Of a DNA stretch of 64,000 nt, positions 8,756-62,524 are shown piece by piece (within the stretch, counting starts at the first letter, position 1; every line of letters begins with the position of its first letter). The notes under the pieces are model-generated. The model had not been told where the DNA came from, made no database searches, and saw only the letters and a program-made list of their open reading frames with translations. The stretch spans positions 186,001 through 250,000 of the forward strand of contig RDEW01000052.1 of NCBI GenBank assembly GCA_011109175.1, written 5' to 3'. The position numbers and the translations under genes were made by a program. The DNA comes from Dicyema japonicum. Its lineage: Eukaryota > Dicyemida > Rhombozoa > Dicyemidae.

Positions 8756-8756
8756 G

Positions 8757-9893: not shown

Positions 9894-9894
9894 C

Positions 9895-11052: not shown

Positions 11053-12745
11053 TCACTCGATATGAATTGATTTTATTGCCGATTTATATAATTCTATATT
11101 GCACAAAATAACAACATTGTAATTCCTTCGAATAATCTCCGCATATAAATGGATCTTTTTCATATTAGATTGTAAGCACACATTCTCAATTTTCATAATA
11201 ATGTTATTAGAAATAAACATTTCCATAATTTCTGGTTCTATTATAAAATATGATATAACGATATCTGTTTGTAATTTCAGCGCATTCCCACATAACCCAT
11301 AGCCAAATTCGTTCATCTGTGTTCACGTTTAATAAATTTATCTTTGAAGTAATAGTTCTTAATATAGAAATTAGGAAATAACCTAATATCGTAATCAGGT
11401 TCGTCACGCCAAGTAAGATTTTTTATAAAAAGAGCAAATTTATTGAGAATCGGTTCACATGAATTCAAATCGCTAAAATCAGAATTCATAAAAATAGGTA
11501 AAAAATCATTTGGATCACTTAATATCTGGCAGATACAACTCAATATGGAATAGACTACGTCACTAGAACAGTTAGCGTGATCAATGTCCCTTTTCGATAA
11601 AACAACAAATTTACAATATAAAATTTATTAGACCATCAGTTCTTAGTAAATATCTGGAATTTGGGCATTTAGCAATATAATGGATAATTTTAATGACGGG
11701 AACTAATATATAATCGCAATCAGGAGGGGATACAGAATATCTTTCGAAAAAATAATAAATATAATAAATTCCACTATAATCTAAAAACAAATTCATATTT
11801 TTTCATTTTCGTCTAACAAATATATTTCAAATACCTAGAAGAACGCTCAACAAATCAAATTTGATAGCATCACTGAAGTCCTCTGTTTTAAAATGTTCAA
11901 CACATAACTAAAATTATTTTGTTATATGAACTTTGACAAGTCCTTCAGAATAAGCAACATAGGCTAGATGATCCATACTCATATTTTTTACGATTGATTT
12001 AAGATCAGTCGGAATACATTGATAATAGTGATGAGGTTTCATTAACATAATTGTAAGGGCAGGTAGCTAAAATAAGAATTAACAAACAAAAATTGATTTC
12101 TCCCACGGTTTAAAATCATTCAAAAGATAAATAAACGGCTAAAAATCAAATAACAGGTAATAATACATATACTTTATATATATTCGAAAAAATCTCAAGA
12201 AAAATATCAAAAATAAAACTATTTATGAAATATACACATACCAAATATTAGCATAAGAAATCGGTGGCTGTTTGACTATTCTCATTAAAATTTCCCTGAT
12301 GTAAAAATTTTAAAATACATTAATAGATTTTGAAAATCATAATCATAATCTACATACAGATGCACAAACTAAATATATATTTCTAAAATACTTTCAAAAA
12401 TGGTTTTAATAAATGATTCTTTTCTGTTGAAACAATCCTTCTTAGAGTAATATTTGATAAATTTGGATAAACTTGAATCATCTTAACAACGTCCTTAACT
12501 TCAACATCTTCACGAGTCAATTCAATGTAAAAAACGTCTTTCTGAACTACATCCGGAATCCTATATAAATTCGAATGTTGAAGAAATAAATCTTTCTCAT
12601 GTCGTGAAATCAAATATTTCAGTTCACTAAGTATTCTTTTAGAAAACATTTTTTTAGACTTGTTGTTTAATTTTGTATATTTTTGTTCATTAAAGTTTGC
12701 TCGAATATTATTAATGCATAACGCGTATAATGAAGGTGTTTCCAT
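11053..12745 (-). pseudogene. ZYG-11-like gene, short copy A (leucine-rich part deleted)
   Basis: Starts with METPSLYALC as in the intact copy at 39057-41413, but after residue ~110 it jumps into exon 4 (...NHLLKPFLK). This deletes 663 bp (199 codons plus introns 1-3) and keeps the reading frame. The downstream introns are all present at the same sizes: 12369-12391, 12296-12318, 12219-12241, 12139-12172, 12067-12087, 11908-11931, 11813-11834, 11590-11614, and so on. A run of six A's in place of seven just 3' of intron 10 (about 11800) shifts frame and hits TGA, so the copy is probably dead unless that base is an error. Confidence 0.7.
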
Positions 12746-13880: not shown

Positions 13881-13889
13881 TGTTTTTAT

Positions 13890-23542: not shown

Positions 23543-23639
23543 TTTCAATTCCCTTAAATTAATAATAAATTTATTAATTTTTTATGTCAAATATTAAGAC
23601 AATCTGTCTTTAACGTGTGAACACAGAGGATCAACTTTA

Positions 23640-25030
23640 TCTCACATTCAGATGACAGTGAGGGTTTGAAGAGGTTGAATTCTTCCCTTTCATATGTGCC
23701 TGATTCTATCCCTGGTATCTTACTATAAAACTTTGGACATTGCGATTGATTCAATCACAGTTATTTTCAACTATTCAATAAAAATGAAACTGTCCTATAT
23801 ACGGCCAATCTTTAAGACGGGGAAGCCTAAGGACAAACCTGCTTTTTTTCGACCAATCTTTTTACTAAACATTTTATCAAAATATTGGAAATTTGATTCT
23901 TAATCTAATGATCTTGACCTTTCATTTTTCATCAACACAAAATGAATTCAGAATGAGTTATTCCACTTCTACTTAACGTCCTTTAACCAATTTATCCTTG
24001 AATGTATTACACAAATCGCCACAGTCGTTTGCTCAATCGATTTACAAAAAAACGATCGACACTGTCTCAAGGAAAATCCTAACCCGGGAATTGTTTGGCC
24101 TCTCTGTAAACCCCAATATAAAACTTTGGCTTGCTAACTTCATCTATTGAAGAACGGCCGTATATATGTATGAGACCAAATCAGTTTCAAAATTACTACC
24201 CAATGGTGTCCCACAAGGTTTTCCTTTGTCACCCCCTTAATAAACTTATGTCTGGTATACCACAACCAGGTAAAAAGACGATTTCCTCCTATAATATGCT
24301 GAAGCCTTATTATTTGATTCCTCCGATTGAGATCTCAGAAGGGCATCATAAAGAGTACAATAATACCTTCACAATATTAGAATTTGGCTAAATTATAATC
24401 GACTTGATAGATTTACTGAAAATCTTCAAATTCCTTAATTACCTCAGACAAACGATTTGGACAAATGACAGTGGAATATTTATCAACTAGACAAAAATAA
24501 CTTTCACGAGGAAACTGAAAATCTTGGTGATCACCTTCGACACACATGTCCTTATCATATATCAACGATGCATTTGCGTTATTGAAAATCAATTTGTTCT
24601 GGACGAACAAACAAAGTATTCGCGACATTCAGCCCTTAACAGCCACTATTATTAGTAATCTTGGAAAACTAAAAAACTAATACCCTCATCACTTGAAGAC
24701 CTTATCTGACAACATAGAAAAAGAATTACTACCCTATGCAGACAGTGCAACTCTGAACAATACATATCAATGACGTGTCTTAAGAGAAAAATATGCAACA
24801 CCCCTCTCAAATAGATTCCATAGCTTCTGGTCATTAGATAATTCAAGTATAAATAATTATTCTTCCCATGAGAATTACGGCTTCTTTTAATCTCTGAATG
24901 GACATTCAATTATTCTAAAATTCATTACTACTATCATAATTAGGAAAATGAATGTTTGCGCATTCGAGCCAACTACTCTACTTAGCTCATTCTCCAAGTG
25001 TCAAACAACTGTTTATAATTTTATGTAGTC
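23640..25030 (+). pseudogene. LINE reverse transcriptase remnant RT-2, copy B
   Basis: The best N-terminal part of the element: an open frame at 23694-23903 reads through KLSYIRPIFKTGKPKDKP and ends at ILSKYWK, the usual entry into a LINE RT domain. Motif A (SIDLQK) follows at about 24040 and is then frameshifted. A motif-B remnant lies near 24200, and a thumb-like segment at about 24500. Confidence 0.65.
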
Positions 25031-25039
25031 AAGGTAAAG

Positions 25040-26500
25040 AAATCCCTTAATGCATCCAGTAATAAATCTCAATGGTCTGTGTCAAATCCTTCGTAGTTTG
25101 GTTTCTTGAATCATATCCACGTTGATTTCGTGACATACCAAAAATGATCGAATTTTTTTCCAGGAAAAAAATGGACCCTATATGGCGAATGCATGGCTCA
25201 ATGTATTGTTTTTATATAGTTTTCAAAATAGAGTGATTTCCAATTTTCTATAACCCAAAGAGACATTTCAACACGTTAGTATTCTCTTAATATTTTGTTA
25301 CTACATTACCAAAATGGCGCAAGAATGAGATGTGCATGTCAAAAATTACCCCAAAGATTTTAACATCATTTAAACAGGATAACACTATTGCTTGTTTTTT
25401 AAATCTAACTGTGTCTCGACGAGCGTTCTTCAACAACCATTCGTTAAGACAGTACAGGTTTCGTTGCAATCTTTAAGCAACAGTCAGCCTGTATGTCACT
25501 GAAACTATGACGATGTCGTCATAAGTAATAAGAATATCATTTTCGACTTCCGGTGTGGGAATATCGGGCATGATTACTTTAATTAAAAAAGCAAAAGGGA
25601 ATATTGGAACACCATTCGGAAGAAATCACAATATAGATTTTAATTTTCCAATTCAGGTACATTCTCTGTCGACCACTAAAGAGGTTAGCTAAAGTTTAAG
25701 TTTTCAGAAATTCTTGTCTGGAATATTGTACAAGAAATCCCTTATACAGTGAGTCGAAATCTTTGTGGAAGTCAATTGAGAAAAGTATGTTCTTCAGATG
25801 TTTATTCCTGTGTGAAAAACCATAATGTATACGTTTATCAAGATTGATAGATGGAGTTAAGTAGACATATCCTCTTTGAATCCATGCTCTCTTAAGATTT
25901 ATTTGTCATCTTTGTAGCAGTTTTGAAAAAGCAATTAGATTCTTAAAAGCTCTCAAAACTTTAGATTCATATTACACTAGAGGAGTTCCGAAATGGCCAA
26001 TGTGATGCAATTGTCGCTCGGAAAAGATGTGTTTATGACCGTTCGATGTCCCATGGCTCCGTTTCTTTATATCCATTCTCGTGAGGAGTAAGACAATGCT
26101 AGTTATCAGTTATGAAGCTATTATACATTCTGTGCATTCAAGTTGCGTCACCATCTCACCTTTTGTATCGTTCCCATCGCTTGTGCCACCCTCCGGATGA
26201 TCCGCTCTGTTACACTTCTCCATGCTCTCGAGATTGCGATTTTTCGGAAGCTGTCTAGTTAATCTGCTTCTTCTAATGCGATTTTCACATGTTTTAGATC
26301 TATCCCATTGTTCGTGGCTTCCCCAAAAAAGAGGAAGATGATTCCATAATACCGTAAGCAGGAACGGCATGATTAATATGTGCCGAAATAATCTCCATCG
26401 GGTCTTAGTAATAATTATATCCAAGTAATTCGATTTACATACTCTGTATAGGTCTTTGTTTTTGATAAATAGATTTCTCCAGGGTGTGTTTTACAAAAAC
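25040..26500 (-). pseudogene. LINE reverse transcriptase remnant RT-3, copy B
   Basis: Right to left: an upstream frame (26424-26110), IHYGFSHRNKHLKN, motif A as ILFSIDFHKDFDSLYKGFL, motif B as PNGVPIFPFAFLIKVIMPD, and motif C as ITYDDIVIVS (YDD in place of YADD). Then comes a thumb segment with GVIFDMHISFLRHFG (within 25469-25287). This is a third LINE lineage in the unit. It is broken between frames. Confidence 0.65.
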
Positions 26501-26533
26501 ATCCAATTGAGGAACGTCACTACCTCAGTCAAT

Positions 26534-31405: not shown

Positions 31406-32193
31406 ATTTTATTTTTTGGAAAAATAAAATTGAAAAATAAGTAAAGTATTAAAATACTTAGTTTTTCATTTATAAATTGTTTCTTAATAATAATTAATTT
31501 AAATTATTTAAAAATTATTCCCCCATAAATGGGACAAGACAGAGCTAAGATTGTGAAGATTACTTTGTTTAGTCAAGATGGCTTTTATTTAAATAAGTAA
31601 TCAAATTGAGATTTTTTTCAAAAAGTTTACGAATCCATCGATTTAAAGTTTGGTTAAATAATTCCATTTGACCCAGGAACTCTTGATCTCGGACGACTAA
31701 TTTCAGTAGAACATTAAACTCTTCATTGGGAATTCATACAATCATTTTTAAATTCTGGAAACGATTATAGTTGCCTTTATGGAAACAAGAGATTGTTACG
31801 AGAACGTGTCTCGATAATTTGTTCAGAAGTCGTGGTTAAGCAAATTGTAAGTGCTTTTAAGAAATAACTAACTTTACAAAAAATTTATAAGTAGTAGAAG
31901 CTCGTCAGTAACTCAATTCCCATCTACCTATTTAATCGGTTCCAACTTAAAAAGGAGACGGTAACTCCATGACCGAAATTCCATACTAAGAAACGATTAC
32001 TCACTGGCAAAAAGATTCGGCATGGATTTCAGATTTTTGACAATATCCTTTGATCACTACTCGGATAATTCTTCTAATTTGAGCCTTCAAAAGCAACCAA
32101 TTAGTCTTAGTTTAACTCTGATTTAAAGAATAATTTTATCAATTTAATTTATTAACTGATCTTTGTTTATTAGTAAAATTATTAATTAACGGA

Positions 32194-34547
32194 TCACTCG
32201 ATATGAATTGATTTTATTGCCGATTTATATAATTCTATATTACAAAAAATAACAACATTGTAATTCCTTCGAATAATCTCCGCATATAAATGGATCTTTT
32301 TCATATTAGATTGTAAGCACACATTCTCAATTTTCATAATAATGTTATTAGAAATAAACATTTCCATAATTTCTGGTTCTATTATAAAATAAGATATAAC
32401 GATATATGTGTGCAAGTTTAGCGCAGTCCCACATAATCCATAGCCAAATTCGTTCATCTATGTTCACGTTTAATAAATTTATCTTAGAAGTAATAGTTCT
32501 TAATATAGAAATTATGAAATAACCTAATATCGTAATCAGGATCGTAACACCAAGGATTAATTGTTATAAAAAGAGCAAATTTATTAAGAATGGGTTCACA
32601 TGGATTCAAATCGCTAAAATCAGAATTCATAAAAATAGGTAAAAAATCATTTGGATCACTTAATATCTGGCAGATACAACTCAATATGGAATAGACTACG
32701 TCACTAGAACAGTTAGCGTGATCAATGTCCCTTTTCGATAAAACAACAAATTTACAATATAAAATTTTATTAGACCATCAGTTCTTAGTAAATATCTGGA
32801 ATTTGGGCATTTAGCAATATAATGGATAATTTTAATGACGGGAACTAATATATAATCGCAATCAGGAGGGGATACAGAATATCTTTCGAAAAAATAATAA
32901 ATATAATAAATTCCACTATAATCTAAAAACAAATTCATATTTTTTCATTTTCGTCTAACAAATATATTTCAAATACCTAGAAGAACGCTCAACAAATCAA
33001 ATTTGATAGCATCACTGAAGTCCTCTGTTTTAAAATGTTCAACACATAACTAAAATAATATTGGTATATGAACTTTGATAAGTCCTTCAGAATAGGCAAC
33101 ATAGGCTAGAAAATCCATACTCATATTTTTTACGATTGATTTAATATCAATCGGAATATATTGATAATGGTGATGAGGTTTCATTAACAGAATTGTAAGG
33201 GCAGGTAGCTAAAATAATAATTAACAAACAAAAATTGATATCTCCCACGGTTTAAAATCATTCAAAAGATAAACAATCGGCTAAAAATCAGATATCAGAT
33301 AGTAATACATATACTTTATATATATTCGAAAAAATCTCAAGAAAAGTATCAAAAATAAAACTATTGATGAAATATACTCATACCAAATATTAAAATAAGA
33401 ATTCGGAGCCTGATTGACTATTCTCATTAAAATCTCCCTCGTGTAAAAATATTAAAATACATTAAATGATATTGAAAATCAAAATCATAATCTACATACA
33501 GATGCATAAACAAAATAATTATTTCTAAAAAACTTTCAAAAATGTTTTTATTAAATTTTCATTCAATTTGCATTTATTTTACAAATGTAATCAATGGTGT
33601 TTCTCAATAGTTTGTCCTTATTATCGAAATGTAAGACAGAAATAACATAATTATTCATAATTGATTGCTCGTCATTCTGCATTATTTAGAAAATATACAG
33701 AATCGCTAATATTTTTACTGAAATGTAAAATTTTACGATAGTGAAATTTTTTAAATCCAATTTTTTTGATTTGGCTAGAATTATTCAAATCAATAACTTT
33801 ATTAACTTTTTTAGTATTTTTCTTTTAATTAAATATCCAGATAAATTCACGTAAGTAAGATTCTTGGCTTTTTCGAAAAGAGAAATGAAATTACAATCAT
33901 ATCCATATATTTCTCCATCACTTGTATGTATGAAATGTCTAAATTTGAGATAAAATCAACCTTCAAAGAATCTGGATTGTTTAAGTTTGTAATAAATTTA
34001 TTAAAATTTGGAATTATGACGTCGTGAAAATTTATGCGTTCCAGTTTTTCTATTATATTTAGTGTTCTGTTATAAATAGTCGTTGTGCTATTGACTCCAA
34101 GAAGGGAGATAAACTTCAATTTTTTAAATCCAGTAATGAATAGTTGATGCAGCAAATCTGGGTCATCATAAAACCAGAGTGAAAATGATTTGACCTCATT
34201 CTGTAAAAATGGCAGTAAAAGATTCTTTTCTGATGAAACAATCCTTTTTAGTGTGATATTTGATAAATTTGGATAAACTTGAATCATCTTAACAACGTCC
34301 TTAACTTCAACATCTTCACGAGTCAATTCAATGTAAAAAACGTTTTTCTGAATTACATCTAGAATCCTATATAAACTCGAATGTTGAAGAAATAAATCTT
34401 TCTCATGTCGTGAAATCAAATATTTCAGTTCACTAAGGATTCTTTTAGAAAACATTTTTTTAGACTTGTTTAATTTTGTAATTTTTGTTCATTAAAGTTT
34501 GCTCGAATATTATTAATGCATAACGCGTATAATGAAGGTGTTTCCAT
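32194..34547 (-). pseudogene. ZYG-11-like gene, copy B1 (degenerate)
   Basis: Full length in layout but broken. Bases are lost near 34470-34490, shifting frame after about 20 codons. An extra G sits at the intron 1 donor (about 33963), the A run after intron 10 is one short (about 32940), and there is an extra T near 32763. Introns 1-4 remain recognisable (GT..AG, 21-23 nt). More diverged from the two neighbouring copies than they are from each other. Confidence 0.7.
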
Positions 34548-35111
34548 TTAATAAGTTGAATATATTGTATGACCTATAAATTTTATTTATTTTTTTATTT
34601 GAATTACATAATTTTTAATAATATTTTTTTATGAAAAAAATAATTATTTGTACTCAGCAATGTTCTATTATTTATATATAAGTGCGAAATCACCGTGAAA
34701 TGTCAGGAATGTTCCAATACCTTCTATGATTGATAAGCCAACCTTTCGATTTTAGATGTGAAAGTACGATTATCGCATAGTGGTCCTCTCACTGACATGA
34801 ATGACCCTTCGAAACATACGAGAATTACATTCAGTGGGTCAGACCAACTAATTTCTCAGACTTCACGCAGAAATAATGGATAGTACGCACGTCAAGAAGG
34901 GTGAGAATGCTAAAAACATTGCAGGATCATTCTTCATTTTTAGTGCGATATAAAGGAGCCAAGAAAAATCTTGAACAATAATGTTAATTTTCATGTGAGA
35001 AAGCAGATATCATTGATAGTCGTTTTTCGACATAACACGTTATGATTATTTTACAAAAAATATTTTCCAATGTCAGAATTGGCAAATTTAGAAACATTAC
35101 TTTATATGGAT

Positions 35112-35291
35112 GTTTTTGAATAACACTACCATCTTCTCGTTCTAGATCAATCAATCCTGTGGCAGATAATTCTTTAACATGATATGTGAATGTATCAATG
35201 TGTACGTTTAAGCAACTTTTTCGTGTTTTTTTATTATTATCAAGATAGACCTTTATAAAAACTCGACCACCGAATACTGGACAGAATTATA
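35112..35291 (-). pseudogene. Exon-like fragment at the 3.43-kb junction, first copy
   Basis: Right to left, an open frame of about 60 codons reads ...GGRVFIKVYLDNN.., ..VHIDTFTYHVKELSATGL.. and ends ..EDGSVIQKH at the repeat junction. A possible splice acceptor (TTCTGTCCAG) precedes it. It is absent from units A and C. Amino-acid content looks like real coding sequence (perhaps a ubiquitin- or RA-like fold, unproven), but no start or neighbouring exon is present. Confidence 0.45.
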
Positions 35292-35623
35292 GGAACTTGT
35301 AATTTCTTGAATTATGTACATCCATTTGAAATTCAAATTTTTAAAATTATGTCTTTATTGCACTTGACATCTGCGTTGCCGATTTACTCTTTAGAGATCT
35401 TGTCCAGCAAAATTTGGAAAAGGCATACAACCTAACCAAAAGCGAGCAAAAATTTTATTTCAGTATTTGGACAATATTCATCGATCACTACTCGGATACT
35501 TGTTCATTTTGAGCCTTCAGAACCAACCAATTAGTCTTAGTTTAACTCTGATTTAACGAATAATTTTATCAATTTAATTTATTAATTGATCTTTGTTTAT
35601 TAGTAAAATTATTAATTAACTAA

Positions 35624-37980
35624 TCACTCGATATGAATTGATTTTATTGCCGATTTATATAATTCTATGCTACAAAAAATAACAACATTGTATTTCCTTC
35701 GAATAATCTCCGCATATAAATGGATCTTTTTCATATTAGATTGTAAGCACACATTCTCAATTTTCATAATAATGTTATTAGAAATAAACATTTCCATAAT
35801 TTCTGGTTCTATTATAAAATAAAATATAACGATATATGTGTGCAAGTTTAGCGCAGTCCCACATAATCCATAGCCAAATTCGTTCATCTATGTTCACGTT
35901 TAATAAATTTATCTTAGAAGTAATAGTTCTTAATATAGAAATTATGAAATAACCTAATATCGTAATCAGGATCGTAACACCAAGGATTAATTGTTATAAA
36001 AAGAGCAAATTTATTAAGAATGGGTTCACATGGATTCAAATCGCTAAAATCAGAATTCATAAAAATAGGTAAAAAATCATTTGGATCACTTAATATCTGG
36101 CAGATACAACTCAATATGGAATAGACTACGTCACTAGAACAGTTAGCGTGATCAATGTCCCTTTTCGATAAAACAACAAATTTACAATATAAAATTTATT
36201 AGACCATCAGTTCTTAGTAAATATCTGGAATTTGGGCATTTAGCAATATAATGGATAATTTTAATGACGGGAACTAATATATAATCGCAATCAGGAGGGG
36301 ATACAGAATATCTTTCGAAAAAATAATAAATATAATAAATTCCACTATAATCTAAAAACAAATTCATATTTTTTTCATTTTCGTCTAACAAATATATTTC
36401 AAATACCTAGAAGAACGCTCAACAAATCAAATTTGATAGCATCACTGAAGTCCTCTGTTTTAAAATGTTCAACACATAACTAAAATTATTTTGTTATATG
36501 AACTTTGACAAGTCCTTCAGAATAAGCAACATAGGCTAGATGATCCATACTCATATTTTTTACGATTGATTTAAGATCAGTCGGAATACATTGATAATAG
36601 TGATGAGGTTTCATTAACATAATTGTAAGGGCAGGTAGCTAAAATAAGAATTAACAAACAAAAATTGATTTCTCCCACGGTTTAAAATCATTCAAAAGAT
36701 AAATAAACGGCTAAAAATCAAAATAACAGGTAATAATACATATACTTTTATATATTTCGAAAAAATCTCAAGAAAAATATCAAAAATAAAACTATTTATG
36801 AAATATACACATACCAAATATTAGCATAAGAAATCGGTGGCTGTTTGACTATTCTCATTAAAATTTCCCTGATGTAAAAATTTTAAAATACATTAATAGA
36901 TTTTGAAAATCATAATCATAATCTACATACAGATGCACAAACTAAATATATATTTCTAAAATACTTTCAAAAATGGTTTTAATAAATTTTCATTCAGTTT
37001 GCATTTTATATAACGAATGTAAGTAATTGCGTTTCCCAATAGTTTGTCTTTATTATCGAAATGTAAAACAGAAATAACATAATTATTAATAATTGATTGA
37101 TCATCATTCTAAATTTTTATAAAATATACAGATTCGCTTATATTTTTACTGAAATGTAAAATTTGACGATGTTGAAATTTTTTAAATCCCATTTTTCTGA
37201 TTTGGCTTGAATTATTCAAATCAATTACTTTGTTAACTTTTTTAGTATTTTTCTTTCAATTAAATATCCAGATAAATTAACGTAAGTAAGATTCTTGGCT
37301 TTTTCGAAAAGAGAAATGAAATTACAATCATATCCATTTATTTCTCCATCACTTGTATGTATGAAATGTCTAAATTTAAGATAAAATCAACTTCAAAGAC
37401 TCTGGATTGTTTATGTTTTTAATAAATTCTTTAAAATTTGAAATTATGACGTCGTGAAAATTTATGCGTTCCAGTTTTTCTATTATATTTAGTGTTCTGT
37501 TGTAAATAGTCGTTGTTCTATTGACTCCAAGGAGGGAGATAAACTTCAATTTTTTAAATCCAGTCATGAATAGTTATGTAGCAAATCTGGGTCATCATAA
37601 AACCAGAGTGAAAATGATTTGACCTCATTCTGTGAAAATGGCAGTAAAGGATTCTCTTCTGATGAAACAATCCTTCTTAGTGTAATATTTGATAAATTTG
37701 GATAAACTTGAATCATCTTAACAACGTCCTTAACTTCAACATTTTCACGAGTTAATTCAATGTAAAAAACGTCTTTCTGAACTACATCCGGAATCCTATA
37801 TAAATTCGAATGTTGAAGAAATAAATCTTTCTCATGTCGTAAAATCAAATATTTCAGTTCATTAAGTATTCTTTTAGAAAACATTTTTTTAGACTTGTTG
37901 TTTAATTTTGTAAATTTTTGTTCATTAAAGTTTGCTCGAATATTATTAATGCATAACGCGTATAATGAAGGTGTTTCCAT
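35624..37980 (-). pseudogene. ZYG-11-like gene, copy B2 (single frameshift)
   Basis: Almost identical to 39057-41413 at a constant offset of 3433 bp. One T is missing at about 37573 in exon 1, which ends the frame at ...DDPDLLHNYS (37564). One extra base lies in intron 7 (35 nt), and a small rearrangement in exon 7 changes SNIYK to SKYIK. All other exons stay open. Functional status depends on whether the lost T is real. Confidence 0.7.
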
Positions 37981-38544
37981 TTAATAAGTTGAATATATTG
38001 TATGACCTATAAATTTTATTTATTTTTTTATTTGAATTACATAATTTTTAATAATATTTTTTTATGAAAAAAATAATTATTTGTACTCAGCAATGTTCTA
38101 TTATTTATATATAAGTGCGAAATCACCGTGAAAATGTCAGGAATGTTCCAATACCTTCTATGATTGATAAGCCAACCTTTCGATTTTAGATGAAAGTACG
38201 ATTATCGCATAGTGGTCCTCTCACTGACATGAATGACCCTTCGAAACATACGAGAATTACATTCAGTGGGTCAGACCAACTAATTTCTCAGACTTCACGC
38301 AGAAATAATGGATAGTACGCACGTCAAGAAGGGTGAGAATGCTAAAAACATTGCAGGATCATTCTTCATTTTTAGTGCGATATAAGGAAGCCAAGAAAAA
38401 TCTTGAACAATAATGTTAATTTTCATGTGAGGAAAGCAGATATCATTGATAGTCGTTTTTCGACATAACACGTTATGATTATTTTACAAAAAATATTTTC
38501 CAATGTCAGAATTGGCAAATTTAGAAACATTACTTTATATGGAT

Positions 38545-38724
38545 GTTTTTGAATAACACTACCATCTTCTCGTTCTAGATCAATCAATCCTGTGGCAGAT
38601 AATTCTTTAACATGATATGTGAATGTATCAATGTGTACGTTTAAGCAACTTTTTCGTGTTTTTTTATTATTATCAAGATAGACCTTTATAAAAACTCGAC
38701 CACCGAATACTGGACAGAATTATA
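38545..38724 (-). pseudogene. Exon-like fragment at the 3.43-kb junction, second copy
   Basis: Identical in frame to the fragment at 35112-35291. Confidence 0.45.
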
Positions 38725-39056
38725 GGAACTTGTAATTTCTTGAATTATGTACATCCATTTGAAATTCAAATTTTTAAAATTATGTCTTTATTGCACTTGA
38801 CATCTGCGTTGCCGATTTACTCTTTAGAGATCTTGTCCAGCAAAATTTGGAAAAGGCATACAACCTAACCAAAAGCGAGCAAAAATTTTATTTCAGTATT
38901 TGGACAATATTCATCGATCACTACTCGGATACTTGTTCATTTTGAGCCTTCAGAACCAACCAATTAGTCTTAGTTTAACTCTGATTTAACGAATAATTTT
39001 ATCAATTTAATTTATTAATTGATCTTTGTTTATTAGTAAAATTATTAATTAACTAA

Positions 39057-41413
39057 TCACTCGATATGAATTGATTTTATTGCCGATTTATATAATTCTA
39101 TGCTACAAAAAATAACAACATTGTATTTCCTTCGAATAATCTCCGCATATAAATGGATCTTTTTCATATTAGATTGTAAGCACACATTCTCAATTTTCAT
39201 AATAATGTTATTAGAAATAAACATTTCCATAATTTCTGGTTCTATTATAAAATAAAATATAACGATATATGTGTGCAAGTTTAGCGCAGTCCCACATAAT
39301 CCATAGCCAAATTCGTTCATCTATGTTCACGTTTAATAAATTTATCTTAGAAGTAATAGTTCTTAATATAGAAATTATGAAATAACCTAATATCGTAATC
39401 AGGATCGTAACACCAAGGATTAATTGTTATAAAAAGAGCAAATTTATTAAGAATGGGTTCACATGGATTCAAATCGCTAAAATCAGAATTCATAAAAATA
39501 GGTAAAAAATCATTTGGATCACTTAATATCTGGCAGATACAACTCAATATGGAATAGACTACGTCACTAGAACAGTTAGCGTGATCAATGTCCCTTTTCG
39601 ATAAAACAACAAATTTACAATATAAAATTTATTAGACCATCAGTTCTTAGTAAATATCTGGAATTTGGGCATTTAGCAATATAATGGATAATTTTAATGA
39701 CGGGAACTAATATATAATCGCAATCAGGAGGGGATACAGAATATCTTTCGAAAAAATAATAAATATAATAAATTCCACTATAATCTAAAAACAAATTCAT
39801 ATTTTTTTCATTTTCGTCTAACAAATATATTTCAAATACCTAGAAGAACGCTCAACAAATCAAATTTGATAGCATCACTGAAGTCCTCTGTTTTAAAATG
39901 TTCAACACATAACTAAAATTATTTTGTTATATGAACTTTGACAAGTCCTTCAGAATAAGCAACATAGGCTAGATGATCCATACTCATATTTTTTACGATT
40001 GATTTAAGATCAGTCGGAATACATTGATAATAGTGATGAGGTTTCATTAACATAATTGTAAGGGCAGGTAGCTAAAATAAGAATTAACAAACAAAAATTG
40101 ATTTCTCCCACGGTTTAAAATCATTCAAAAGATAAATAAACGGCTAAAAATCAAATAACAGGTAATAATACATATACTTTATATATATTCGAAAAAATCT
40201 CAAGAAAAATATCAAAAATAAAACTATTTATGAAATATACACATACCAAATATTAGCATAAGAAATCGGTGGCTGTTTGACTATTCTCATTAAAATTTCC
40301 CTGATGTAAAAATTTTAAAATACATTAATAGATTTTGAAAATCATAATCATAATCTACATACAGATGCACAAACTAAATATATATTTCTAAAATACTTTC
40401 AAAAATGGTTTTAATAAATTTTCATTCAGTTTGCATTTTATATAACGAATGTAAGTAATTGCGTTTCCCAATAGTTTGTCTTTATTATCGAAATGTAAAA
40501 CAGAAATAACATAATTATTAATAATTGATTGATCATCATTCTAAATTTTTATAAAATATACAGATTCGCTTATATTTTTACTGAAATGTAAAATTTGACG
40601 ATGTTGAAATTTTTTAAATCCCATTTTTCTGATTTGGCTTGAATTATTCAAATCAATTACTTTGTTAACTTTTTTAGTATTTTTCTTTCAATTAAATATC
40701 CAGATAAATTAACGTAAGTAAGATTCTTGGCTTTTTCGAAAAGAGAAATGAAATTACAATCATATCCATTTATTTCTCCATCACTTGTATGTATGAAATG
40801 TCTAAATTTAAGATAAAATCAACTTCAAAGACTCTGGATTGTTTATGTTTTTAATAAATTCTTTAAAATTTGAAATTATGACGTCGTGAAAATTTATGCG
40901 TTCCAGTTTTTCTATTATATTTAGTGTTCTGTTGTAAATAGTCGTTGTTCTATTGACTCCAAGGAGGGAGATAAACTTCAATTTTTTAAATCCAGTCATG
41001 AATAGTTTATGTAGCAAATCTGGGTCATCATAAAACCAGAGTGAAAATGATTTGACCTCATTCTGTGAAAATGGCAGTAAAGGATTCTCTTCTGATGAAA
41101 CAATCCTTCTTAGTGTAATATTTGATAAATTTGGATAAACTTGAATCATCTTAACAACGTCCTTAACTTCAACATTTTCACGAGTTAATTCAATGTAAAA
41201 AACGTCTTTCTGAACTACATCCGGAATCCTATATAAATTCGAATGTTGAAGAAATAAATCTTTCTCATGTCGTAAAATCAAATATTTCAGTTCATTAAGT
41301 ATTCTTTTAGAAAACATTTTTTTAGACTTGTTGTTTAATTTTGTAAATTTTTGTTCATTAAAGTTTGCTCGAATATTATTAATGCATAACGCGTATAATG
41401 AAGGTGTTTCCAT
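39057..41413 (-). CDS. Divergent ZYG-11/ZER-1-like protein, intact, 13 micro-introns
   Basis: ATG at 41413, TGA at 39059-39057. Introns (GT..AG): 40802-40823, 40638-40660, 40541-40561, 40374-40396, 40301-40323, 40224-40246, 40144-40177, 40072-40092, 39913-39936, 39818-39839, 39594-39618, 39362-39386 and 39189-39222, sizes 21-34 nt. Removing them leaves 2037 nt, 678 residues, no internal stop; without splicing every frame stops. The N-terminus (PSLYALCINNIRANF) looks like a cullin-box helix. Leucine-rich segments (LSNITLRRI, LKFISLLGV, LTYVNLSGYL) span about residues 90-235. The rest is helical and ARM-like, with SRYLLRTDGLINFIL (~505-520) and DERIWLWIMWDCAKL (~603-617), which recall the ZYG-11/ZER-1 ARM region. 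Length is near the family's ~750. Family members are CUL2 ubiquitin-ligase substrate receptors that bind N-terminal glycine degrons. Gene structure is well supported; the family call is moderate. Confidence 0.72.
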
Positions 41414-42574
41414 TTAATAAGTTGAATATATTGTATGACCTATAAATTTTATTTATTTTTTTATTTGAATTACATAATTTTTAATAATATTTTTTTATGA
41501 AAAAAATAATTATTTGTACTCAGCAGCAATGTTCTATTATTTATATATAAGTGCGAAATCACCGTGAAAATGTCAGGAATGTTCCAATACCTTCTATGAT
41601 TGATAAGCCAACCTTTCGATTTTAGATGTGAAAGTACGATTATCGCATAGTGGTCCTCTCACTGACATGAATGACCCTTCGAAACATACGAGAATTACAT
41701 TCAGTGGGTCAGACCAACTAATTTCTCAGACTTCACGCAGAAATAATGGATAGTACGCACGTCAAGAAGGGTGAGAATGCTAAAAACATTGCAGGATCAT
41801 TCTTCATTTTTAGTGCGATATAAGGAGCCAAGAAAAATCTTGAACAATAATGTTAATTTTCATGTGAGGAAAGCAGATATCATTGATAGTCGTTTTTCGA
41901 CATAACACGTTATGATTATTTTACAAAAAATATTTTCCAATGTCAGAATTAGCAAATTTAGTAACATTACTTTATATGATGACTCATTAACGTATTTTAT
42001 ATAAAATAAATATACCATTACATAAATCACTTGGTAAATTTACCTTAATAGACTATCTGAAGTCTCTGAAGTATTTCTCAGATCGTTTATTAGATCTACG
42101 GGAAACAACCTGTTTTAATCATTTTTTTCATCTTAAAAATTATGTCATAGTCGTTTTTAATGTCATAGAAAATAGACAAATTTGTTCTCTCTAACGAAAG
42201 AAACAGATTGGATATCTATGTTGTTGGTTGTTCTGAGGTCCTGTGAGATGTTATTGTTTTCTAAAAAATTATTGATATTCGTCAGTTAATCTATCTGCAA
42301 CAACAGTAAGTTTTTCTCGCATCTGAGAACGGGCATTTTTTCTCTTCATGTTAGGGTTTCTTCAAACTCCCCACACTTCAAAAGTCCTTTATTACTATTT
42401 TCGGACCGTGATGATAAATTTTTATATTGATCCATAATGTGCTTATATTTGGTCATATTTCCCTGTGGACACTGTAAAAACCAAGTTCCATAGTTAGTGT
42501 ATACGGAATCGAGGATTTTTAATTCATACACTAATCCACTCTGCTTTTATTTTTTATTATTATAATTTGTTTTG
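41414..42574. other. Upstream flank of the intact ZYG-11-like gene
   Basis: Holds the 5' flank shared by every gene copy, then unit sequence equal to 13310-13890. A minus-strand frame at 42531-42346 is not kept in A. I cannot place a promoter. Confidence 0.45.
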
Positions 42575-42785
42575 TTTTAGTTCTTGAATCCTTGGTACGA
42601 ATGAACCATGGAACGAGGTGCCGTGACTGCTAACGTTCTGTCACTCGACCTATTCGTTCGTGTGTGGGGTCGTGGGAGGGGCATCAGGCCAAAATGAGGT
42701 CTTTGCTAGATCTGGTTGCGGCCACGTTATTAGTTAGTTTGTGTAACTTTGGTCTTTTTTGTTATTATTATTACCTAATTAGTTC
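42575..42785 (+). repeat. Repeat family X, inverted second copy in unit B
   Basis: Unit-B counterpart of 13890-14115, with the same TTATTATTATTACC tail. Confidence 0.65.
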
Positions 42786-42912
42786 AGTTACTATTAGTGA
42801 CATGGTGGACAGGTTGCCATTAAAATAAAGTTGTCATAATTAAACGAATTTTTTACGATAATAAATATTCAAATTATTTTTCAGTATTTCTTAATTTCGC
42901 TATTTTACGATT

Positions 42913-43436
42913 ATGTGTGCTCAAATATTAGACTTTCTCTTCGCGGGGTCATCGTCGACATCCGTCGAGGTGCTTCTAAGAAGTCCAGAGGAATTCCCTG
43001 AGAATTCCTTACCCCACCTACTCACTCTATTCAGAATGAATCAGAAATGCACGAACATCACTTCAGAGGTTAAACAATGCATTAAGGATAATGAGGTTAC
43101 TGAAGTAATCGTACTTTCATTGGCTACAACAAATGGAAGTCAATGTCTTATGAACATCTATATTCTTCTTCCTGTCTCAAAAACCAAGGGATATGAGATT
43201 CTAAATTTATAAGATTGACTACCTTCGATGAGATCATCATCTGTGAAGACCTGAATGCCAATCATCCACTTTGGTTGTCTTCTCAACTAGCCGACAAAAG
43301 AGGAAAATTACCACTTTCGCAAACAGACACTTTAACCATTTTAAACGATCCTTCAAAAAACACAAAGGACCAGCCTTCTTCACCTGACGTAACTCTGTCA
43401 TGCGTAAATGCATCGATGATTACATTGTCAGTCTAA
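42913..43436 (+). pseudogene. LINE endonuclease fragment (apurinic-endonuclease type), copy B
   Basis: Two frames, 42913-43212 and 43215-43436. The second has the late signature of the LINE endonuclease/exonuclease/phosphatase domain: EIIICEDLNANHPLWLSS, a KRGK step, LTILND, and SSPDVTLS. The catalytic-region G of GDLN is E here. The first frame supplies the preceding strands. It lies upstream of an R4-like RT with a different type of C-terminus, so the two probably come from different elements. Confidence 0.6.
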
Positions 43437-43699
43437 AGAAATTCGTAATGTGGCAAAGGGTTATGAGGTTTCACTTTAAGACTACACTCAGAGAGATGTC
43501 AATAGGATGATAAAATTCTACACCAAGATTTCATGCAAAAATTACAAAAAGTTAAATGGTTCACAGTTATCACGAAGGAAGCTGAAAAGAGGTCTGACAA
43601 TTCTCGGAGAAGGAAGTGAGGGAATCATCTTTTCTCCAGAACATGTTCCAACTACACGGATTACATTCTGTTAATTCTGTTAAATACTTATAGATGGAT

Positions 43700-45080
43700 G
43701 AATCACCTTCCTTACGGCCATCTTAAACTTTTCATTTAATCAATACGTAACACCATTAAATTGGAACCAGGCTACATTCGCCCAATTCTCAAACCATGAA
43801 ACCATAGGTAGGACTAGCGTCATTTTGACCTGATCCCACTCTGATCAATATGACAAGGCGCCAAAAAGCAAGTTGTGATCAATTAGTGTATAAGAGATGT
43901 ATATGGAATAATTTATTTGCAACATGGCTCGACATTAGGAAGCATATGATTCAGTCGACCATGAGGAAATTTCTTGAAGAGTCTAACTACTAAATGGAGA
44001 GTAATCTTAAACTTAAACACATAGAGGATTGGGACAGTTGAATTGAAGCATGGAGTACTGAAAGGGACTTTGTCTCCCAAAATTTTTGTTTTAGAACTGG
44101 ATCAGTTGAGCAAAATCCTAACAATAGGTTTTCAAAATTATTTACTTTTGATAGTTACCTGTCAGTGAACGTATTCAAAAAACATCTGAAGATACTTGCG
44201 GAGAAAAGATTGATGATTATTTCGATGTTGTTTGTCTCAAGTGATAATTTGAAAAGTCAACACTAATCTTGAATCCATGAATGAAGTGAAATGCCTGGAT
44301 GGACAAGAAAGCTATCGGTAACTCTGTGTTTTAGAAGACAAATGACGTAATTTCATAAAGCATAAAGTCTTGAACAATATTACTGAAAATATGAGAATGA
44401 GGACTCTAAACTTGTTGCATACAAAACTCAATGCTGTAAGGCTGTTTAAAGCTATAAATGGTTAATATTGAACCAAAGGAGTTTGAAAATGTAGATTTGG
44501 ATATTCGATGTGTCAGAGTATAAAATTCATGTGAAGCCCGCAAACAAGGAGAAATTATATATTAGTCGAACTAAATTAGGGAGGGGCCTTACTTCGATTA
44601 TCCATGAGTGAATGTATACTGTACCAGTTTCTGACTGATGTGGATAGAAAATCGAATATTTCGCTAAGAAAGAATGGAATCTGCAAGGTCTTGAAAACAA
44701 AGAAAATGCATGTGACCACGATCGATAGATTCCTACTTTTCAAGTAAAAGATGGATCTAACTCAAGTTGACATGAAGACTATCAGAGAAAATTAGGAGAA
44801 ATTCCTGATTGATTCCATTGGGAAAAAGCCGCTATACCCTATGCTGTTTAACAGTTACGTTGATATGGCAGGATCTTTGGAGTGGTTAATCAATGGAAAT
44901 AATAGCCCGAGATCGGAGGGAATGTATTATTTGCTTCGGGATAGGAACTTGTTTTTTATACCAATGATTCAGTTTATAGTCAAAAGTGCAAGAAATCATT
45001 GGACCATTTGGCTACACGTTGTAGCAAAATTGTCAATAGTGATTACATGAGAATTAACCTCCTGATAATAGGCTAAACAA
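43700..45080 (+). pseudogene. R4/Dong-like LINE remnant, copy B
   Basis: Same element, with the clearest C-terminus: a frame at 44841-45050 with SLEWLINGN then EGMYYLL, and in a neighbouring frame CKKSLDHLATRCSKIV..DYM (about 44987-45050). That is the C-x2-C...H-x4-C finger-like pattern that precedes the restriction-like nuclease in R4/Dong/NeSL-type LINEs. LDGQESYR lies near 44303. An extra stretch near 44090-44130, missing in A, restores motif-B context. Confidence 0.5.
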
Positions 45081-52745: not shown

Positions 52746-52949
52746 GGATACACTTAATTAATTGTTTACTTTAACTTCTTTCTCGGTGTATCCGGGGTTA
52801 ATAAATAAATTTAAAAAAAAATAAATATTTATTAAAATAATTTTTCAATATGGCGAACCTATAATTAAATTTATATATTATTCGGCATGCGTTGCCACTT
52901 TCTTGTGGTCGGCTGTTTGTATTTATTTTGTTGCATATTTTGTATTTTT

Positions 52950-54430
52950 CTGCTGTTTTGTCACACATTATATTATAGGATTTATCAAATAGTGTTGAAG
53001 GCTGCTATCAAAGTGTTTTCGATAAATATTTTGCTAATTCATTGTTTGCTTATCTTCTACACTATTCTGACTAATCAATATATTCAAGATATATCAATGT
53101 CATTCAATATTGAGTTTTTCTATATGCGAATTTATTACATTTATTCACTATTTCATTCAATTTTTTTATTTTGACATCTCAAGACCAAGTTGAAACCAAA
53201 CACGTGCTCTAGATGAGTTCCATCAGAGTATTTGTCTTCATCCTGTCTACTATCCGGACCGATATTTAATACATTCTCTGCAGTTTATAAAATCTGAACT
53301 TCCTTTTTGACATTTCCTCAATGCTTCTCATATTCGTCTAAATAAATGATATGAAAATTCAAATGACCACGATAACTCAAACTAACTTCTCAAGTGACAA
53401 GCTCGAATTAAGACTTTTGACTGGGGTCCACAAAAAACCTCAATCATCATGCCTTTGTTTCCTTTAACTGTTGAAGACTCACACGTGTCTTCGATCCAAC
53501 TGTTGAAGACTTCTTTAAAATTTTGTGGCAACAATAAACAAAGATGCTTTTATGTCTTAAATGAACAAAAAAAGACTTTTTTAAGTTTTAATAAAATAAA
53601 ATTATATTTGCTTTAATAATACTTGCTTTGTACTTTTATATTGACGAACTTAGAAAAAATCATGTTATTCCTTTTATAGTTTCTCTTCCCAAGCGAGAAA
53701 AGACTAAATTTTAAACTAGTACGAAAAAGTCTGTTGGCGATGCTATTTCAGTTAAAGTTTAATATTTGATGGACACTTTTCTTTTTATTTGTCATCATTA
53801 AGAATCGTTTGCTTTTACTATCTTATATAGATGCGACAATCTCTCAGGAAAAGAAAATTAAGAACAAACGACTCCCTTTCACGTTTGTTTTCGGATGTAT
53901 CCAGCGCGAAGTTAAACGAGGACCAAGAAAAACTAATGTGAAGAAAATATTGGTGACTTTCCCAATGATTTGCCATCGTATGTCAAATTATCGTGTAATG
54001 ACTTGTTCATGAAAGAATCGTTGTAGAACGATCTGCACTGTAGCCATGTTGAAATTCAGGCAGTGGTAGAACAAGGGAGATTAACATTAATACAAGCTTC
54101 TCCATCACTCTTGTTCTTGAAGTTTTAAATAAATAAATCTCAGCTTAAACGGAACTCACGTAATTTAAGATGTGAAGAACATTTATACTGTATAATTCAA
54201 GGCATCGAAAATGTTCTTAAGTAATTTTCTTTTTGCTTAAGTATAAATATTTAGAGATTTCGTTACTGAGCGATTAGTAACTAATTACGTAGTTAATCGA
54301 TTCCAAGCAGCAACTTAGATATTTTGAATCTTCGACCGAAATAAAGAAGAGCGAGATTCTAACTTGGGACCATCTGAATTCGGTCAGGCACTCACTAACT
54401 GATTCAACAATTGAAACGTGTAATTTTTAA
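52950..54430. other. Unit segment with hydrophobic short frames, no confident gene
   Basis: A plus frame at 52887-53174 (and 21062-21397 in B) encodes hydrophobic sequence such as AAIKVFSINILLIHCLLIFYT. The T-rich composition alone would give that, the frame is not extended the same way in both copies, and A has lost the region. Confidence 0.35.
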
Positions 54431-54499
54431 TATTTTATTTAATTTTAAATTTATAATGCGATTAAAATCAAATAAAATCACAACAAATATAAAAAATAA

Positions 54500-55360
54500 A
54501 TGTGTCATTTAGGTTTCCTTAATGTTGAACTAATTTTAGTTTTTTTATTATTTTTTATCACGTTGGCCATGCAATGTGGAAAAGATAATGGAAGCTCAAT
54601 TCAACTTCTAAAAAATGGATTTCTTACGAGGATTGCCTTTCTCAATAATAATGTAACAGCATCCTCAGTGGTATAATATCTATCATTGTTTTGGAGGTTA
54701 ATTTTATTATTTATTAGAAATCAATTTTTACACTGACAAAAAATAGATTTGTCGTTTATAAACAGCCGAACGATTATGTAGCGACTTTGTCAGAGGATAT
54801 ATACAAGCTTACGTTTATTTATGCCCAGGTGGATGAATCGGTTAAAATAACACAAATTTCAGTTTCAGTTAATTATACCGGTAAATATGTGATCTATATA
54901 GATTTGAAAAAGAATTCAACTATGAACCAGAAATTTGGCATAAAATTGGTGAATATTTCAGTTGTTACAAAATCAGGCTTAAAAAAAGCAATGTGGTGTT
55001 ACTTATGTTCAATCTAAAGTTACAGTTATTCAGAAATGACAAAATCTTAGATTTAATTGGGTCAGGTTAGTTCGTTGAATAATGATTAGCAAATGAATGC
55101 AAATCGAACATACAAAAAACGTCTATAATGTCGACCATAGGTCGTATAGTGAATGGCAAAAATTATTCATCGGAGAGTCAAAAAAAGAGGGTAAACATGT
55201 CGACAATCGGTCGGATATCGAATGGAGCAAAATATAAATCATAAAGTTTTTCTAGTGCCAACAGACCGATGATTTTAGGCTGCGTAATTTCAGCATTTTT
55301 GTCATTTCGTTAATTGCATATTTTAAAGTGAAACGAATAGAGAGAGAGATCACTACTTAA
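54500..55360 (+). pseudogene. Membrane glycoprotein gene, broken copy C
   Basis: Nearly identical to 22680-23542 but disabled. One base is lost near 54660 (after the NVTA codons), which shifts frame. A TAA replaces a TAC codon near 55243, and one T is lost in the run coding for the membrane span near 55300. All splice sites are still recognisable. Confidence 0.65.
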
Positions 55361-55449
55361 TTTCAATTCCCTTAAATTAATAATAAATTTATTTAATTTT
55401 TTATGTCAAATATTAAGACAATCTGTCTTTAACGTGTGAACACAGAGGA

Positions 55450-56860
55450 TCAACTTTATCTCACATTCAGATGACAGTGAGGGTTTGAAGAGGTTGATTT
55501 CTTCCCTTTCATATGTGCCTGATTCTATCCCTGGTATCTTACTATAAAACTTTGGACATTGCGATTAATTCAATTACAAGTTATTTTTCAATAATTCAAT
55601 AAAAATGAAACTGGCCTATATACGGCCAATCTATAAGACGGAGAAGCCTAAGGACAAACCTGCTTTTTTTCGACCAATCTTTTTACTATACATTTTATCA
55701 AAATATTGGAAAATTGATTCTTAATCTAATGATCTTGTCCTTTCATTTTTCATCAACACAAAATGAATTCAGAATGAGTTATTCCACTTCTACTAACGTC
55801 CTTAACCAATTTATCTGAAGGTATTAACAAAAATCTTCGCCACCTCAAAACAGTCGTTTGCTCAATCAATTTACAAAAGGCGATCGACACTGTCTCAAGG
55901 AAAATCCTAACCCGGAAATTGTTTGGCCTCTCAGTCAACCCCAATATAAAACTTTGGCTTGCTAACTTCATCAATTGGAAGAACGGCCAGTATACATGTA
56001 TGAGACCAAATCAGTTTCAAAATTACTACCCAATGGTGTCCCACAAAGTTCTCCTTTGTCACCCCCCTTAATAAACTTATGTCTGGTATACCACAACCAG
56101 GTAAAAAGACGATTTCCTCCTATAATATGCTGATGCCTTATTATTGATCCTCCGATTGAGATCTCTTAAGGGCATCATAAAGAGTACAATAATATTTTCA
56201 CAATATTAGAATTTGGCTAAATTATAATCGTCTTAAAAGATTTACTGAAAATCTTCAAATTCCTTAATTACCTCAGACAAACGATTTGGACAAATGACAG
56301 TGGAATATTTATCAACTAGACAAAAATAACTTTCATTAGGAAACTAAAAATCTTGGTGATCACCTTCGACACACATGTCCTAATCATATATCAGCGATGC
56401 ATTTGCGTCATTGAAAATCAATTTGTCCTGGACGGACAAACAAAGTATTCGCGACATTCAGCCCTTAACAGCCACTATTATTAGTAATCTTGGAAAACTA
56501 AGAGACTAATACCCTCATCACTTGAAGACCTTATCTGACAACAGAAAAACAATTACTACCTTATGCAGACAGTGCAACTCTGAACAATACACATCAATGA
56601 CGTGTCTTAAGAGAAAAATATGCATCACCCCTATCCAATAGATTCCATAGCTTCTGGTCATTAGATAATTCAAGTATAAATAATTATTCTGCCCATGAGA
56701 ATTACGGCTTCTTTTAATTCTGAATGGACATTCAATTATTCTAAAATTAATTACTACGATCATACTTAGGAAAATGAATGTTTGCGCATTCGAGGCAACT
56801 ACTCTACTAGCTCATTCTCCAAGTGTCAAACAACTGTTTATAATTTTATGTAATCAAGGT
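55450..56860 (+). pseudogene. LINE reverse transcriptase remnant RT-2, copy C
   Basis: Here motif A reads SINLQKAIDTVSRKIL (about 55860-55905), with the first acidic residue changed to N. It is followed by LPNGVPQSSPLSPPLINL (about 56028-56082) for motif B. A later frame contains LKILVITFDTHVLIIY. The order is right for a LINE RT, but frame is lost several times. Confidence 0.65.
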
Positions 56861-56869
56861 AAAAAAATC

Positions 56870-60530: not shown

Positions 60531-62524
60531 ATATTTTTTTGAGGTACGCACTTGCACATTTGTTACCCTTTACGACAGCATTTACGTCTGGACCTCAGGT
60601 TTTCCAGGGACCAGATAATAAGACTTTTAGTTTTAGCAATTTTTGATGGATATTAAGCATATCTTGTGGTGTGAACTTTAATGATAATTTCCGGAACTAT
60701 AAACTTTAATCATTTCTAAGGATTAATTAAAGATCCCAGAGAGACATAGGGACAACTATTGACAAGCCTCGTGTTTAAAATTAAAAAATTATTTTTTTAT
60801 ATATGTTTAATCACTTTTCTTTTACAAATACACTATAAATTATTTATTTTAATTATCCTGAGCTCTTTCATGCTCTAATTGTCTGTTATTATTGGTTCTA
60901 ATCAAATTATAAGTGTCTCTCAAAAAAAAATGTAAAAGCACGTGATCAAAAAGTATTTCAAAAGTGAAAAATATTATGTCACGGACGTACGTGGTATCGG
61001 CCCACACATGGTTAATGATCTTAATCAGTTAAAAAATAATTATTATATTTTTGTTCGTTATTAGATTAGGATTACAAATATATATTTTTTAATTTAAAAT
61101 AATCACTTTTTTAATTTTTTGGAAAAATAAAATTGAAAAATGTGTACAGTATTAAAATACTTAGTTTTTCATTTATAAATTGTTTCTTAATAATAAATTA
61201 ATTTAAATTATTTAAAATTATTCCCCCATAAATGGGACAAGACAGAGCTAAGATTGTGAAGATTACTTTGTTTGTTAAGATGGTTATTATCTAAATAAGT
61301 AATCAAATTGAGATTTTTTTAAAAAAGTTTCCGAATCCATCGATTTAAAGTTTGGTTATTAATTCCATTTGACCCAGGCACTTTTGATCTCGGACGACTA
61401 ATTTCAGTAGAACATTAAACTCTCTTCATAGGAAATTTATACAATCATTTTTAAATCTGGAAACGATTATAGTTGCCTTTATGGAAACAAGAGTTTGTTA
61501 GAAGAACGTGTCTCGATAATTTGTTCAGAAGTCCTAGTTAAGCAAATTGTAAGTGCTTTTAAGAAATAACTAACTTTCCAAAAAATTTATAAGTAGTAGA
61601 AGATCGTCAGTAACTCAATTCCCATCTACCTATTTAATCGGTTCCAACTTAAAAAGGAAACGGTAACTCCATGACCGAAATTCCATACTAAGAAACGATT
61701 AGTCACTGGCAAAAAGTTTCGGCATGGATTTCAGTTTTTGGACAATATCCATAGATCACTACTTGGATAATTGTTCACTTTGAGCCTTCAAAAGCAACCA
61801 ATTAGTCTTAGTTTAACTCTGATTTAACGAATAATTTTATCAATTTATTTATTAATTGATCTTTGTTTATTAGTAAAATTATTAATTAACGGATCACTAA
61901 TCTGTGAGATTTACAATCAGAATAACAGATTTTTATGTCTCTTTAATTTTGAAGGTTTGATGGAGTTGTTTTCCAATATATTGAGCATTTTCGTAATCAT
62001 CATTATTGGAAATGTCTTGTAAATCTAAATTTGACATGAGAATTAGACCAAAAACGTTAATTAGAATCCGACACGAAACACGCCCACAATAATTTATTAT
62101 GAAAAAATAATAATCAAATTTTAATAAACATTATTTTATTTTTAAATTTAAAATAAACGGCACGTAATGGATTTTAGTCAGGACATCTTGAGAACGCTGT
62201 TTTATAATCAAACTACATTTTCCAGCCTTAAAATGACTAAAAAAAGTTTTTTTCCGTACTTATTTTTTGGTAGATATACTCTCTCCTTAAAAGCTGGGCT
62301 GTTATAATTTTTTACTTCATCATAACTTTCCGACTTGCACGAAGTCTTAATCAAATATGAGGCTATAGAGGATTCTAACGTTCAATCATTTAATGTCAGA
62401 GGATTGAAACATAATCTAACCACTATTGAAAGTTGGATTTTTTTCTCTTAATTAGAATATTTGAAATTTGTTTGTTTCTGTGATAATAATACTGGACTTT
62501 AAGTATAACATATTACCTACGGGT

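Follow-up and report, generated by a model that had tools for sequence, protein, structure and literature searches.

The window, by which we mean the whole 64,000-nt stretch of Dicyema japonicum DNA analysed here, carries on its minus strand a predicted gene, copy W1, interrupted by thirteen very short introns. A sequence-only reading had proposed 14 exons, separated by 13 GT-AG introns of stated sizes and joined in a single frame of 678 codons, and had noted that every unspliced frame stops within about 200 codons. Using a constrained search from position 41413 down to 39057, we recovered an open frame with exactly these thirteen sizes; the size sum and the phases also agree, the product is 678 aa long, and the longest unspliced frame in the span is 201 aa. 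Threading with the proposed sizes has two solutions that differ at intron 12 alone; in W1 the frame likewise stays open with an alternative 25-nt intron 12 at 39387-39411. Twelve of the thirteen introns stand unchanged in our corrected model, introns 5 and 7 being the less supported, and the sequence taken for the thirteenth is coding. The corrected gene has a CDS of 2049 nt, with no stop and no frameshift over its 682 codons. Table 1 lists its features together with those of the related copies.

Table 1. Coordinates of the gene, its introns and related features. Positions are those of the window, except for L065. Fractions give the modelled loci sharing an intron of up to 60 nt at the site and phase; some loci do not span every site.
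Feature	Position	Strand	Description
Gene copy W1	39057..41413	-	ATG at 41413, stop ends at 39057; 14 exons, 13 introns, 682 aa (corrected)
BC-box-like motif	41372..41401	-	SLYALCINNI, residues 5-14
Intron 1	40802..40823	-	22 nt; site 196, phase 2; 21/24 loci
Intron 2	40638..40660	-	23 nt; site 243, phase 2; 22/24 loci
Intron 3	40541..40561	-	21 nt; site 269, phase 0; 22/24 loci, and L065
Intron 4	40374..40396	-	23 nt; site 317, phase 0; 21/24 loci
Intron 5	40301..40323	-	23 nt; site 333, phase 2; 8/24 loci, less widely shared
Intron 6	40224..40246	-	23 nt; site 351, phase 2; 23/24 loci
Intron 7	40144..40177	-	34 nt; site 367, phase 0; 10/24 loci (27-35 nt); the only long one, less certain
Intron 8	40072..40092	-	21 nt; site 384, phase 0; 23/24 loci, and L065
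Intron 9	39913..39936	-	24 nt; site 429, phase 0; 22/24 loci
Intron 10	39818..39839	-	22 nt; site 453, phase 1; 20/24 loci, and L065
Intron 11	39594..39618	-	25 nt; site 519, phase 2; 20/24 loci, and L065
Intron 12	39362..39386	-	25 nt; site 588, phase 2; 15/24 loci at 587/588 phase 2, and L065
Intron 13 (corrected)	39242..39263	-	22 nt, GTTATATTTTATTTTATAATAG; site 621, phase 1; 16/24 loci, and L065
Intron 13 of the sequence-only reading	39189..39222	-	34 nt; coding sequence FISNNIIMKIE
Tandem copy W2	35627..37980	-	99.7% DNA identity to W1; 0 mismatches, 6 gap openings; one frameshift in model
Tandem copy W3	32197..34547	-	95% DNA identity to W1; 6 frameshifts in model
Copy W4	11056..12745	-	gene middle missing (about residues 116-308)
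Fragment similar to the gene's 3' flank	61728..61898	-	93.6% over 172 bases
L065	G000:C137:1896400-1899700		separate ZER1/ZYG11-like gene with full degron pocket

Several observations support the relocation of intron 13. The peptide encoded by the 34-nt segment is exonic in the paralogs L041, L045 and L050. Eighteen fetched paralog loci align past residue 600, and in 16 of them the relocated intron gave a higher alignment score, even though the intron penalty had been increased from 10 to 12. Scores dropped in L040, in L044 and in the near-identical window copies W2-W4, as well as in L036 and L042, neither of which reaches the intron 13 site. At the corrected site and phase, the divergent homolog L065 also carries an intron, of 23 nt. 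Furthermore, the corrected protein gains a match to the Pfam family ZER1-like_2nd (E 1.6e-4, residues 410-648) that runs across the new junction, a family not listed in the scan of the first 678-aa model. Judged from these alignments, the earlier intron 13 is wrong and the 22-nt intron is the real one.

We modelled 24 loci of the gene family, of which 20 were fetched from elsewhere in the genome (52-84% identity to the window protein) and four, W1-W4, lie in the window. Altogether they contain 161 distinct introns with a median length of 23 nt. The positions of these introns depend on their GT-AG ends: when the 20 fetched loci are aligned, 197 introns land at a reference site and phase with GT-AG, against 0-5 for eight decoy pairs with both dinucleotides changed and 15-102 for six decoy pairs keeping one of them. 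In one group of loci (L045, L046, L047 and L050), variable columns number 7/250 in introns vs 115/2020 in exons, and the flanks are far more variable than either (128/435 and 67/384 columns). Introns evolving more slowly than exons were suspected in this group; W1 and W3 show the opposite, with 16/202 intron differences (0.079) vs a pS of 0.054. Since this comparison reverses the pattern, we make no claim of slower intron evolution.

The relationship of the family to known proteins became visible through corrected models and a bridging gene. Searched with the first 678-aa model, a collection of 5.8 billion proteins gave no match at E <= 0.001 (7993 candidates scored), Pfam gave three weak unrelated families only and the PDB none, and NCBIfam gave weak matches to bacterial families only (best E 0.0043). 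The sequence-only reading had guessed at ZYG11/ZER1, and the guess holds up: ZER1-like_2nd matches both the corrected W1 and L045, and L065 bridges the distance. A Pfam scan of five family members (group A1: W1, L036, L040, L041 and L045) found this family in three, of which L045 (E 1.5e-9) exceeds the curated cut-off and W1 and L040 (E 1.5e-4 in the latter) fall below it; no match was found in L041 or in the partial L036. The ARM part of L065 matches ZER1-like_2nd at E 1.1e-42 and ZER1 in the PDB at E 1.1e-25. This same part aligns with the family profile at a probability of 99.2 (E 1.3e-19), and the first 207 aa of L065 align with the W1 protein at E 1e-31 and 38% identity. With the W1 protein as guide, 6 of 11 introns placed in L065 fall at W1 sites and phases (269/0, 384/0, 453/1, 519/2, 588/2 and 621/1). 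The length of the intron at 453 depends on the guide: 43 nt with W1, 22 nt with ZER1. Alignment of L065 to the ZER1 chain gives introns of 21-25 nt.

These sequence matches and the six introns common in site and phase make it most likely that a single ZYG11/ZER1-like gene, already bearing the six introns, gave rise to both the family and L065. Direct alignment to the ZER1 ARM chain beats the best of eight shuffled chains in 3 of 7 family loci, W1 not among them; the link to this protein family rests on Pfam, on profiles and on L065. In the LRR region we obtained sub-threshold matches alone (LRR_4 at E 0.058 in L041, LRR_Zer-1 at E 0.034 in L065), and we take the middle part of the family protein to be LRR-like.

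The gene is amplified. With the first model we obtained 84 matches in the genome. They form 53 clusters spread over 27 contigs; since two of the clusters, on C118, are one gene, we count about 52 loci, a lower bound with 65 of 365 candidates scored. Frameshifts or stops occur in 19 of the 24 locus models and five are clean; the clean models running past residue 630 are those of W1, L040 and L041. The defective copies may be pseudogenes or may reflect assembly errors. As to the differences between W1 and its neighbour W2, six gaps with no substitution, they suggest either indel error or a copy made very recently. The dN/dS ratio has a median of 0.61 over 267 pairs and ranges from 0.58 to 1.43 in the ten youngest pairs, so that many copies may be decaying; along the protein, it rises from a minimum of 0.50 over codons 1-60 to a maximum of 0.78 over codons 270-430.

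These observations raise the question of whether W1 itself could be a recently duplicated pseudogene, its exon structure being a fossil of a functional ancestor. The nearly identical neighbours W2 and W3, with their frameshifts, lend this view some weight, as do the frequency of defects across the modelled loci and the ratios of the youngest pairs. However, W1 has kept its 682 codons free of stops and frameshifts, and the family-wide median dN/dS also argues against this interpretation, which we consider unlikely but worth keeping in mind.

The surroundings of the gene are themselves repetitive. The window consists largely of segmental repeats, with the receptor gene inside them and offsets of about 28-32 kb recurring. 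Repeated pairs include 1-3461 and 17631-21114 (96%), 21150-26519 and 52948-58332 (95%), 12410-15431 and 41078-44092 (94%), and 32026-38545 and 35457-41981 (98%). A further pair, 8553-9957 and 59180-60582 (95%), contains ORFs of 162 aa (9157-9645, plus strand) and 193 aa (59575-60156, minus strand), neither of which has a Pfam match at E 0.1.

To place the introns of W1 in the context of the genome, we aligned conserved genes, with splicing, to chains of solved structure (62-84% identity, introns of 10-300 nt allowed). In thymidylate synthase (TS), CCT2, CCT5 and Prp8, the last as two parts covering 849 aa of the protein, all 34 placed introns measure 22-26 nt (mean 23.4, SD 1.0), and in every one of these genes four decoy end pairs score below GT-AG. 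The models retain a single frameshift each in CCT5, CCT2 and Prp8a, and the CCT2 model also has a stop. In Elongin C there is one intron, of 26 nt. Two PAX genes, read by eye, share an intron position in the paired domain, with lengths of 24 and 25 nt; PAX gave eight matches at four places, all eight over the cut-off. By its own terms, the sequence-only reading would be refuted if the smallest introns genome-wide were much larger; our gene sample (the four conserved genes, Elongin C and the two PAX introns), with sizes within 22-26 nt, does not refute it. As the introns of these genes are equally short, shortness seems to belong to the genome as a whole and not to W1 in particular.

The best of 11 U1 candidates scores 69.0 bits, just under the Rfam cut-off of 69.5, which none of the 11 exceeds, and this copy carries the canonical 5' end ACUUACCUG. 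Of 25 U2 matches, 22 are over the cut-off of 46 bits; the best (155.1 bits) carries the canonical branch-site-pairing sequence GUAGUA. Six of the 22 are located on C115 of G000. Donors are weak, GT being followed mostly by A or T, and acceptors in the conserved genes are TAG (47%), CAG (29%) or AAG (24%). Over 36 introns, the best match to TACTAAC averages 4.0 of 7 positions vs 3.75 in shuffles, 42 of 1000 being as high, a weak signal that yields no firm branch-point consensus. We infer that the introns are removed from RNA by intron definition. If they are spliced as modelled, a 5' site, a branch point and a 3' site would all fit within about 21-25 nt, and this genome would let one probe how short an intron can be for intron definition to work in an animal. 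A practical corollary is that such genes would be broken up into small ORFs by gene finders adjusted to introns of usual length.

We may also hypothesize that the short elements are excised from somatic DNA by programmed DNA elimination, and not from RNA. Rearrangement and chromatin elimination have been reported in dicyemid somatic cells (PMC6543705), and the assembly could be a germline form. Against this mechanism, the conserved genes are fitted better with GT...AG ends than with the four decoy pairs, both U1 and U2 are canonical, and 16 short introns were identified in Dicyema by comparison of cDNA with genomic sequence (PMC2222250). Excision from DNA is thus very improbable as the origin of the gaps, and we retain splicing of the RNA in what follows.

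Finally, long open frames could in principle arise by chance in AT-rich DNA if GT-AG gaps are freely chosen. Single gaps of this kind are easy to place, as the misplaced intron 13 illustrates. When introns of 18-40 nt are allowed, threading the W1 span is possible and takes no fewer than 13 introns; with the start frame fixed, end-to-end threading succeeds in 0 of 200 dinucleotide shuffles of the span and in 0 of 84 window segments of the same size. With a start at any ATG, the longest chain in a 3.5-kb region measures 2412 nt and begins exactly at 41413, whereas for 200 shuffles of this region the median is 494 nt and the longest chain 1512 nt. The DNA of the window itself is a stricter control: among 70 tiles drawn from both strands, that of the gene among them, the median chain is 1080 nt, and one tile besides the gene's (1751-5250, minus strand) reaches 2544 nt through a chain at 2110-4653 with GT-AG gaps of 18-40 nt, which is longer than W1. 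Length therefore carries less of the case than the paralogs do. With decoy dinucleotides failing, and with the Pfam and L065 matches running over joined exons, chance threading is refuted by the paralog comparison, and we see next to no room for it.

Our preferred reading, to which we assign a probability of about 0.85, is that W1 is a real protein-coding animal gene, that a U1/U2 spliceosome with canonical RNAs would remove introns of about 21-26 nt in this genome as a rule, and that the product belongs to an amplified receptor family related to ZYG11/ZER1. The genome contains an Elongin C gene, found with a protein query, and cullin matches at five places; a search with the Skp1_POZ family gave one place, which we read as SKP1. 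Within the BC-box-like motif at the N-terminus, the pattern is kept across the modelled loci, with S5 in 22/22, L6 in 22/23, C10 in 23/23 and I14 in 23/23 of those loci, among the 24, that have any residue at the position. ZYG11B binds Elongin C through its BC box (PMC13201589). We thus describe the family as putative Cullin-2 receptors with changed targets: the N-terminal BC box would dock on Elongin C, and the middle, putatively LRR-like part would, together with the ARM part, present substrates to the Cullin-2 ubiquitin ligase.

The change of targets is suggested by the degron pocket. In ZER1, the degron is bound by W552, N553, D556, N597 and E600; replacing W552 or E600 with Ala abolished peptide binding, and replacing N553 with Ala reduced it (PMC9741652). 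We mapped these residues by alignment, with ZER1 residue numbers placed by counting along the chain. Among family loci with a residue at the position, W552 is found in 0/23, N553 in 0/23 and E600 in 0/22, whereas D556 is found in 17/23 (Glu in five) and N597 in 15/21 (Tyr in the window copies). L065 has all five. With W552, N553 and E600 gone, the copies probably read other substrates than ZER1 and ZYG11B do. We propose, tentatively and at somewhat less than even odds, a wider scenario in which a ZYG11/ZER1-type receptor was amplified to some 52 or more loci, keeping its docking end and rebuilding its degron pocket so that the copies became new degron readers, and in which the main intron class, at about 23 nt, may be shorter than that of any other animal. 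Other animals have large F-box or BTB sets. If this scenario is true, a near-minimal animal would possess a set of new degron readers peculiar to its lineage. The family also raises the question of how E3 receptors change targets after losing residues that define a known degron. We found no paper on a dicyemid ZYG11 in the open-licence literature, and the words "ubiquitin" and "leucine-rich" are absent from the main text of PMC6736024.

Several known systems help to situate these results. The family is like ZYG11B and ZER1 in its BC-box-like start and in an ARM domain with a ZER1-like_2nd match; unlike these receptors of Gly/N-degrons, it has lost three of the five pocket residues and occupies about 52 loci in a single genome. 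As to the introns, the ciliate Stentor coeruleus has even smaller ones, of 15-16 nt. It resembles the genome described here in having exceptionally small spliceosomal introns, and all snRNAs are present in Stentor (PMC9505925). There is also a likeness with the dicyemids Dicyema acuticephalum, D. japonicum and Dicyema sp., in which the main intron class also lies in the twenties of nt, and which the sequence-only reading had named among the bearers of introns this short: published sizes are 26.2 +/- 1.9 nt (n = 16; PMC2222250) and a median of 27 nt, the orthonectid median being 57 (PMC6543705). Also as in dicyemids, we observe an intron inside the PAX paired domain, and animal developmental genes in a genome of some 65 Mb; for D. 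japonicum, 67.5 Mb, 36.7% GC and a mean intron size of 38.2 have been reported (PMC6736024), and the genome we searched comprises 64.7 Mb, with a GC content of 26-39% in 2-kb bins of the window. The introns of the four conserved genes, at 22-26 nt (mean 23.4), are shorter than the published 26.2 +/- 1.9 nt and median of 27 nt, and the mean of 38.2 is larger still. Taken by themselves, the PAX genes mark the genome as an animal's, and its size and intron class fit a dicyemid; another animal lineage that arrived independently at mini-introns is unlikely. Trichinella, with a genome of about 64 Mb, was dropped as a candidate since tiny introns occur in all conserved genes inspected and its thymidylate synthase chain (5by6, 386 bits) scores below the best match (424 bits). 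Dicyemid mini-introns are already in print, and what is newer here is the amplified receptor gene family.
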